Of a stretch of DNA of 61,206 nucleotides, positions 32,493 to 36,190 are shown piece after piece. A model generated the notes under the pieces. It did no database searches. It was not told where the DNA came from and was given only the letters and a program-made list of their open reading frames with translations. Location: NCBI GenBank assembly GCA_030729385.1, contig JANQXM010000055.1, positions 1 through 61,206 on the forward strand, given 5' to 3'. Within the stretch, counting starts at the first letter, position 1. Each line of letters starts with the position of its first letter. Source of the stretch: Opitutales bacterium. Lineage in GTDB: Bacteria; Verrucomicrobiota; Verrucomicrobiia; Opitutales; Coraliomargaritaceae. A program made the translations under genes and the position numbers.

Positions 32493-32498
32493 TTATTT

Positions 32499-32551
32499 TT
32501 CAATAAAGGTGCCGCTGGAAACCGCTGGTGGCGCCTTTTATTGATTTTTTT
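32499..32551 (+). terminator. Terminator between rpsJ and rplC
   Basis: TCAATAAAGGTGCC pairs with GGCGCCTTTTATTGA (one bulge, wobbles), followed by seven T. It sits right after rpsJ. It should end the str-rpsJ transcript or attenuate readthrough into the rplC genes. Confidence 0.88.
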
Positions 32552-32559
32552 GATATTTC

Positions 32560-32601
32560 TTGAAAACAACTATTGACGAGTGGGTAACTTCCCTCTTTTT
32601 T
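32560..32601 (+). promoter_or_regulatory. Possible promoter region of the rplC operon
   Basis: TTGAAA (32560) and TTGACG (32573) are two -35-like elements in the A/T-rich 150 bp between the terminator and rplC. The -10 partners (TAACTT at 32585, or a T run at 32596) are weak. A promoter is expected here because a strong terminator precedes it. Confidence 0.35.
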
Positions 32602-32654
32602 CCGTCGCTCGCTTCCCACTGAGGCGATAAATCACATTTTTTTAAACCGCTAAC

Positions 32655-32690
32655 GCAGGTCTAACAAACGGAACCTCCAGTTCCACCTGC
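32655..32690 (+). promoter_or_regulatory. Bulged hairpin in the rplC leader
   Basis: The outer stem GCAGGT (32655-32660) pairs with ACCTGC (32685-32690) and the inner stem GGAAC (32670-32674) with GTTCC (32680-32684). A 9-nt one-sided bulge (CTAACAAAC) and a 5-nt loop complete it. The structure ends 11 nt before the rplC ATG and there is no Shine-Dalgarno sequence, so it could control access of the ribosome. An autoregulatory r-protein site is a natural reading, but unproven. Confidence 0.6.
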
Positions 32691-32701
32691 CTATTAGTAT
32701 T

Positions 32702-35177: not shown

Positions 35178-35447
35178 ATGTCACGTTCCGTAAAAAAAGG
35201 TTTCTTCGTCGATCCCCACCTTTCCAAAAAGGTAGTGGTCGCACAGGCCAACAATGACCGCAAGCCGATCCAAACTTGGTCGCGCCGTTCGACAATCACT
35301 CCCGACTTCGTCGGTCTCAACTTCAACGTCCACAACGGTCGCAGCTTTTTGCCCGTCTATGTGACTGAGAATATGGTTGGCCACAAGCTTGGTGAGTTTG
35401 CACCGACACGTACCTTCAAGGGTCACCCTACAGGTAAGGCTAAATAA
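35178..35447 (+). CDS. rpsS: Ribosomal protein S19 (uS19)
   Basis: S19 is a 30S head protein contacting the A-site finger. The 89-residue product has [50 protein letters not shown] in the family pattern, and ends [11 protein letters not shown]. In most bacteria rplV follows directly; here a 375-bp gene for an exported protein intervenes. Confidence 0.97.
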
Positions 35448-35474
35448 AGCCACCAACACTTAGCTATAAACGCC

Positions 35475-35849
35475 ATGCACCTTTCGCCCATATCAACACT
35501 ATCTAAGCTAGCCAGCTTGTTCCTTTTCGGGGCAATGGTTGCCGGTAGTGCTGTGCGTGCGGAAGTTCCCGCTTTCGTCAAAGAGTCTCTCTATAGTCCT
35601 TATGCGGCACCCGTCGCATCCGTGGTTCCTACACTCGCAGCTGACGTCGTTATTATCGACGGTGGTTTAGAGCAAGGGTTACGCCTCGGGATGGTTTGCT
35701 CCATCAGTCGTGGATTAAGCTCTATTGGCGAATTGATCATCATCGAATCTCAAAGTGACCGTGCCGCAGGACTTATCCTCGAATTGGTCGACGACTCCAC
35801 CATTCAAGCGGGAGACATTGCCCGCGTTAAAACAATTCAAAACAGCTGA
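35475..35849 (+). CDS. Exported protein of unknown function inserted in the S10 operon
   Basis: This 124-residue frame lies between rpsS (27-nt gap) and rplV (5-nt gap). It starts with a Sec-type signal peptide (LASLFLFGAMVAGSAVRA, AxA-like site before EVPAF). The mature part of about 90 residues is a likely beta domain, with VVIIDGGLEQGLRLGMVCSI, IGELIIIESQSD and IQAGDIARVK. That spacing resembles a small beta-barrel domain seen at the end of FlgT-like or other envelope proteins, but the match is weak. Tight packing and consistent codon use suggest a genuine gene co-transcribed with ribosomal proteins. The ATG has no Shine-Dalgarno sequence. Function is unknown. Confidence 0.8.
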   Translation: MHLSPISTLSKLASLFLFGAMVAGSAVRAEVPAFVKESLYSPYAAPVASVVPTLAADVVIIDGGLEQGLRLGMVCSISRGLSSIGELIIIESQSDRAAGLILELVDDSTIQAGDIARVKTIQNS

Positions 35850-35854
35850 ATCTC

Positions 35855-36190
35855 ATGCAGGTCCAAGCCTATACTAAATACGCCCGTATGTCGCCCCGCA
35901 AGGTGCGCGATATCACTCGCGCCATCCAAGGTCGCAACGCCGCCGAGGCCGTCGAAATCTTACGCTTTATTCCGCGTAAGTCCGCACGTCTCGTCAGCAA
36001 AACGCTCCAGTCGGCAATCGCGAATGCGGAAAACAATAACAACCTTTCTTCGGATGCACTCAAGATTGAGTCGGCTACCGTCGAGCAAGGCCCAGCGTTC
36101 AAGCGCTTCCGCCCAGCTGCTCGTGGTTCGGCACACCCTTATAAGAAGCAGACCAGCCACATCCGTATCATCCTCACTGACGAGGCTTAA
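35855..36190 (+). CDS. rplV: Ribosomal protein L22 (uL22)
   Basis: L22 lines the exit tunnel near the macrolide site. The 111-residue product has MQVQAYTKYARMSPRKVRD, LRFIPRKSARLVSKTLQSA and a tunnel hairpin around GPAFKRFRPAARGSAHPYKK. It begins 5 nt after the exported-protein gene, so its translation may be coupled to that gene. Confidence 0.97.
   Translation: MQVQAYTKYARMSPRKVRDITRAIQGRNAAEAVEILRFIPRKSARLVSKTLQSAIANAENNNNLSSDALKIESATVEQGPAFKRFRPAARGSAHPYKKQTSHIRIILTDEA

Follow-up and report, generated by a model that had tools for sequence, protein, structure and literature searches.

A predicted exported barrel protein encoded between rpsS and rplV in the S10 operon of Verrucomicrobiota

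What is the gene for a predicted exported protein doing among the genes of the ribosome? Few bacterial gene orders are as conserved as that of the S10 operon, within which rpsS (S19) and rplV (L22) are neighbors in most species. In the window, by which we mean the whole 61,206-nucleotide stretch of an Opitutales bacterium's DNA that we analyzed, genes follow the usual order between rpsS and secY, with a single exception: the gene we call X. An earlier note on this DNA had offered two readings of X, one in which it ties envelope growth to ribosome synthesis and one in which it is a lineage-specific insertion that the operon tolerates. Our own leading reading, to which we give a probability of roughly 45%, is that X belongs to the envelope, as a scaffold or stoichiometric subunit, and that the ribosomal operon sets its dose. 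An exported non-ribosomal gene kept inside the S10 operon phylum-wide is unusual, and we found no description of X in the literature we searched, on insertions in the S10 operon, Verrucomicrobiota signature proteins and Akkermansia essential genes.

A gene inside the S10 operon

X (35475..35849, plus strand) starts with ATG and encodes a protein of 124 residues. Its 5' neighbor is rpsS (35178..35447, plus strand; PF00203, 9e-36) and its 3' neighbor is rplV (35855..36190, plus strand; PF00237, 2e-36), so the reading frame and its two gaps stand as the earlier note described them. The first gap, of 27 nt (35448..35474, plus strand), is devoid of an SD-like motif; the second measures 5 nt (35850..35854, plus strand), and the rplV translation initiation region extends into the last codons of X. 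X is co-directional with both neighbors and tightly spaced, as a gene of the S10 operon should be, and a scan of the coding (plus) strand from rpsS to rplV found no terminator-like site. SD-like motifs are absent at 16 of the 25 starts checked in the window's ribosomal cluster, those of X, fusA and secY among them. Further upstream, the 209-nt rpsJ–rplC gap (32493-32701) holds a strong terminator-like hairpin (32505-32538; 14 pairs, T-rich after), and the S10 operon in the window may therefore be attenuated or split after rpsJ.

Read by eye, the N terminus, MHLSPISTLSKLASLFLFGAMVAGSAVRA followed by E, has a polar n-region, a hydrophobic core and a V-R-A site, and it looks cleavable between MVAGSAVRA and EVP. 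This places a putative signal peptide at residues 1 to 29 (35475..35561, plus strand) and supports the export signal that had been proposed for the protein. Relatives preserve the hydrophobic core of this region, and its residues drift.

The earlier note had also allowed for a spurious frame, absent or disrupted in relatives. A homologue is present in 42 of 57 genomes of close relatives, and in each of the 41 order-level loci where both flanking genes are present, X lies between rpsS and rplV, with rpsS–rplV gaps of 342-478 nt and a hydrophobic stretch at the N terminus of X. Over 91 pairs within the family (Nei–Gojobori), whole-protein dN/dS has a median of 0.18; the first 31 codons taken by themselves give 0.44 and the codons after them 0.12, and rplV gives 0.04 in the same comparison. 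A chance frame is ruled out by the homologues in relatives and by purifying selection at this level. The pattern along the gene is, as far as codons can tell, that of an exported protein with a constrained mature domain.

Could X matter less as a protein than as a switch for the gene that follows it? An exported product encoded 5 nt ahead of rplV, with the rplV initiation region overlapping its end, recalls SecM; X would then be a secretion-monitoring leader whose export state controls rplV translation. Synonymous-site conservation is indeed 0.87 over the last 10 codons of X and 0.87-0.91 around the junction, and folding of the window's junction RNA gives a favorable z of -3.4. Equal synonymous-site conservation is seen at the starts of rplB and rpsC, however, and the rplV start is therefore best taken for a normal initiation region whose overlap with the end of X is incidental. 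The aligned pairs show almost no covariation and the junction RNA has no match in Rfam, and we reject a special RNA element here. Nor does the protein help: the barrel is conserved but the C-terminal tail varies between families (VKTIQNS, VKTLKA, LKTL, RANPRI), a comparison that yielded no conserved arrest motif. Short spacers flank X in relatives, but spacers of up to 80-130 nt also occur, and there are long forms with a coil. A SecM-like leader is, in our judgment, very improbable.

Distribution across the phylum

Our collection scan was seeded with the L22 alignment, since A1 was too divergent, and so also returned genomes that lack X. For the phylum we sampled 132 genomes evenly and scored them for S19, L22 and X, the last with a profile of 50 sequences, the survey covering Verrucomicrobiota as grouped by the tool. 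In 71 of the 132, X is the gene immediately 5' of rplV. In 43 of these genomes rpsS is on the other side of X, with 405-1158 nt between the domain matches; this is the phylum-wide outcome of the synteny check that the earlier note had proposed, alongside the 41 loci of the order. In the other 28, all Lentisphaeria-like, rpsS has been relocated and X is still directly 5' of rplV; in three of them (G167, G170 and G135) a single contig holds both rpsS and rplV, separated by 37 kb to 1.2 Mb. A split S10 operon with rpsS far from rplV is seen in these three and in G061, also Lentisphaeria-like. Weak X matches in Lentisphaeria-like families (E 1e-6 to 1e-10) were accepted on the strength of their position immediately ahead of rplV. 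One ancient cut beyond X could account for the linkage in all the split operons, which makes that linkage modest evidence only.

Operonic matches from other classes, checked individually, are nearly all between rpsS and rplV. At this position, Verrucomicrobiales- and Chthoniobacterales-like genomes (L050, L056, L057, L064, L082, L092, L108 and L124) encode an exported protein that is longer and shares the C-terminal domain. When named genomes were scanned with the L22 alignment, the window's family fell close to 'Opitutia bacterium UBA7441' (L045). Outside the phylum (Firmicutes, Proteobacteria and others, among L073-L123), nearly all loci have an rpsS–rplV gap of 138 nt or less and lack X. 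"Lineage-specific", as the insertion had been called, is thus too narrow a term for a gene that spans the phylum Verrucomicrobiota. The identities of X and L22 correlate across 66 loci (r 0.67, against 0.18 for the top of 2000 permutations), as fits vertical descent with losses. X is an old gene that many Verrucomicrobiota have, the gut bacterium Akkermansia muciniphila probably among them. The long form, of 236 aa, is carried by genome G163 (C1:357230-357940, minus strand), which appears to be A. muciniphila ATCC BAA-835, and its presence there makes the idea testable. Amuc_0296-0297, Amuc_0301 and Amuc_0304 are listed as ribosomal in a published transcriptome study (PMC13335675). One metagenome-assembled contig titled Akkermansia muciniphila (CAMCHD010000171.1, L068) has an L22 of Opitutales type together with the short form of X; it is probably misbinned or misnamed.

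Losses speak for the second of the earlier readings, which we put as a neutral or hitch-hiking insertion that profits from strong expression. X has been lost from most sampled Opitutaceae-like (f13) genomes, from f24 and from several further families, and is dispensable there. In the 41 genomes that have rpsS and rplV adjacent and no X, the gap is 47-190 nt in all but three, a clean removal after which the operon evidently works. One of the three exceptions is G109, a genome of 0.9 Mb whose gap measures 355 nt and contains no X gene; it is one of two genomes of this endosymbiont size in which X has been lost (L180 in G109; L182 in G090). Yet X has been kept at one place in three main lineages under strong purifying selection, with its barrel motif preserved. 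That X has stayed so long at one place under strong purifying selection, has been lost cleanly elsewhere and keeps to rplV in the split operons argues, taken together, against mere tolerance, which we consider distinctly unlikely, and fits selection for co-expression. Of the two readings first put forward, then, tolerance is disfavored and the envelope–ribosome link fits what is seen.

The barrel and its possible role

AlphaFold2, run with 20 sequences, folds residues 41-120 (35595..35834, plus strand) into a six-stranded barrel with a block mean pLDDT of 91-98, in keeping with the small, beta-rich mature domain that had been read from the sequence. The Opitutales protein is a short form: a signal peptide and this single six-stranded beta-barrel. 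In most other lineages X takes a long form (~160-305 aa), in which an export signal or membrane anchor and a helical coil precede the same barrel; in the long form that was modeled, helices run over residues 36-154. Overall, X ranges from 105 to about 300 aa. Its N terminus looks like a cleaved signal in Verrucomicrobiae-like genomes and like a membrane anchor in some Kiritimatiellae-like ones (L149, L150). X-type barrels also occur in separate anchor-and-coil genes, some of them tandem pairs outside the operon (L133 in G148:C2; L161 in G399:C6; Akkermansia-like f23). The window's own genome has such a paralogue, a 277-aa anchor-coil-barrel protein (L162:1992-2825; G000:C24, minus strand), next to a gene resembling glucose-6-phosphate isomerase.

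The earlier note had left the domain unidentified, and it is true that no Pfam or NCBIfam model reaches its cut-off for X; what can be added is that this is a small barrel nearest to those of FlgT_C, TsaP-C and MreC. In structure comparison, F1/V1-ATPase subunits come first with their N-terminal barrels (Z about 10), and FlgT and MreC are also among the matches. Among solved chains, a sequence profile puts TsaP (E 0.0012) and MreC (0.12) closest. FlgT_C is the commonest sub-threshold match (12 of 50 X members at E <= 1, best 1.8e-4); L092 scores 15.6 bits against a gathering cut-off of 27, and the window's X has no match to FlgT_C (PF16538). Judged by predicted fold and profile, X has a fold and a motif in common with FlgT, TsaP and MreC and is a member of none of these families. 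As a phylum marker it exposes a gap in curated family libraries.

The MreC matches (NCBIfam, profile and fold), weak as they are, raise an alternative. With its export signal or anchor, helices and barrel, long-form X has the layout of an MreC-like accessory to cell elongation, and its place in the operon would let wall synthesis follow growth. All 14 sampled Akkermansia-like (f23) genomes have X and are without a Pfam MreC match (G060, G075, G078, G081, G084, G087, G103, G115, G121, G134, G148, G156, G161 and G163), and nearly all the other sampled genomes do have one. The association between X and MreC loss reaches p 0.006, but the MreC-less genomes form one clade, so the enrichment is one event rather than independent evidence and we set it aside. 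Moreover, 57 of the 71 X-bearing genomes have a real MreC elsewhere, the window's genome among them (C6:13474-13932 of G000; 2e-27). Pfam's MreC model does not match X, the NCBIfam model gives 13 bits against a cut-off of 385, and hhalign of X against 12 MreC proteins of the phylum returns a probability of 6%. An MreC-like accessory is in our view an unlikely reading.

The best sequence match among solved structures points elsewhere, to the C-terminal part of TsaP, both halves of whose domain are covered, and X could accordingly be a peptidoglycan- or secretin-associated protein. A secretin is present in 21 of 22 genomes checked. Secretins also occur, though, in X-less genomes (G048, G140, G182), and G015 has X and, as the sole secretin match in a 99% complete genome, a short stretch with two stops (G015:C6:72220-72510), as if the gene were decaying. 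X itself is without the LysM domain. We hold a TsaP-like role to be quite unlikely.

We return to X as an envelope subunit dosed by the S10 operon. X would be exported by Sec and cleaved, leaving in Opitutales a periplasmic protein of ~95 residues and one barrel. Less certainly, the barrel may serve protein–protein contacts or assembly, like its counterparts in FlgT, TsaP and MreC, in which case X would be part of the cell envelope as a scaffold or stoichiometric subunit. From its place in the operon we infer that X is co-expressed with rplV and produced in step with ribosomes; its dose would then be held in proportion to ribosome content and, through ribosome content, to growth rate. There is a counterpoint: the fold is common, and the best structural matches, the ATPase barrels, belong to cytoplasmic proteins. 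No partner gene for X was found. Its location nonetheless hints that envelope building is dosed jointly with ribosome building, the two syntheses being physically joined here in one string of genes. A broader version, in which this exported structural subunit is ancestral to Verrucomicrobiota, Lentisphaeria- and Kiritimatiellae-like lineages included, couples envelope to ribosome phylum-wide and partly replaces MreC-type scaffolding in Akkermansia, strikes us as rather unlikely.

Comparison with known systems

Like X, the PVC signature protein (CT421.2 homologues) is a hypothetical lineage marker of the same superphylum; compared by size alone, X is the longer, at 105-300 aa against about 53 to over 80 aa (PMC3444138). 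The C-terminal domain of FlgT (PF16538; 3w1e, Foldseek rank 9) shares with X the small barrel and a G...G...GM motif, and FlgT is periplasmic; unlike X, it is a flagellar ring protein with additional domains. X is not tied to flagella: FliG_C is absent from the window genome and from 64 of the 71 X-bearing genomes, with no association (Fisher p 0.59). TsaP, the type IV pilus secretin accessory (3jc8), has a C-terminal domain that matches the X profile in two halves (E 0.0012 and 0.0025). X differs in having no tie to a pilus locus, in being encoded in the S10 operon and in its want of LysM, for which Pfam gave no match in the window's X and which was not among the matches of six further operonic forms. 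Long X approaches MreC (PF04085) in overall plan, and its barrel is similar to a beta domain of MreC, but X has a single barrel where MreC has two successive beta domains, and the window's X is also without a coil.

By position, the closest parallels are the non-ribosomal genes of ribosomal-protein operons, secY, adk, map, infA and rpoA, which, like X, are co-encoded with ribosomal proteins. Those genes serve core translation, transcription, nucleotide supply or, in the case of secY, export, and they do so in nearly all bacteria. X, in contrast, is itself the predicted exported product, and within the genomes we examined it is confined to one phylum.
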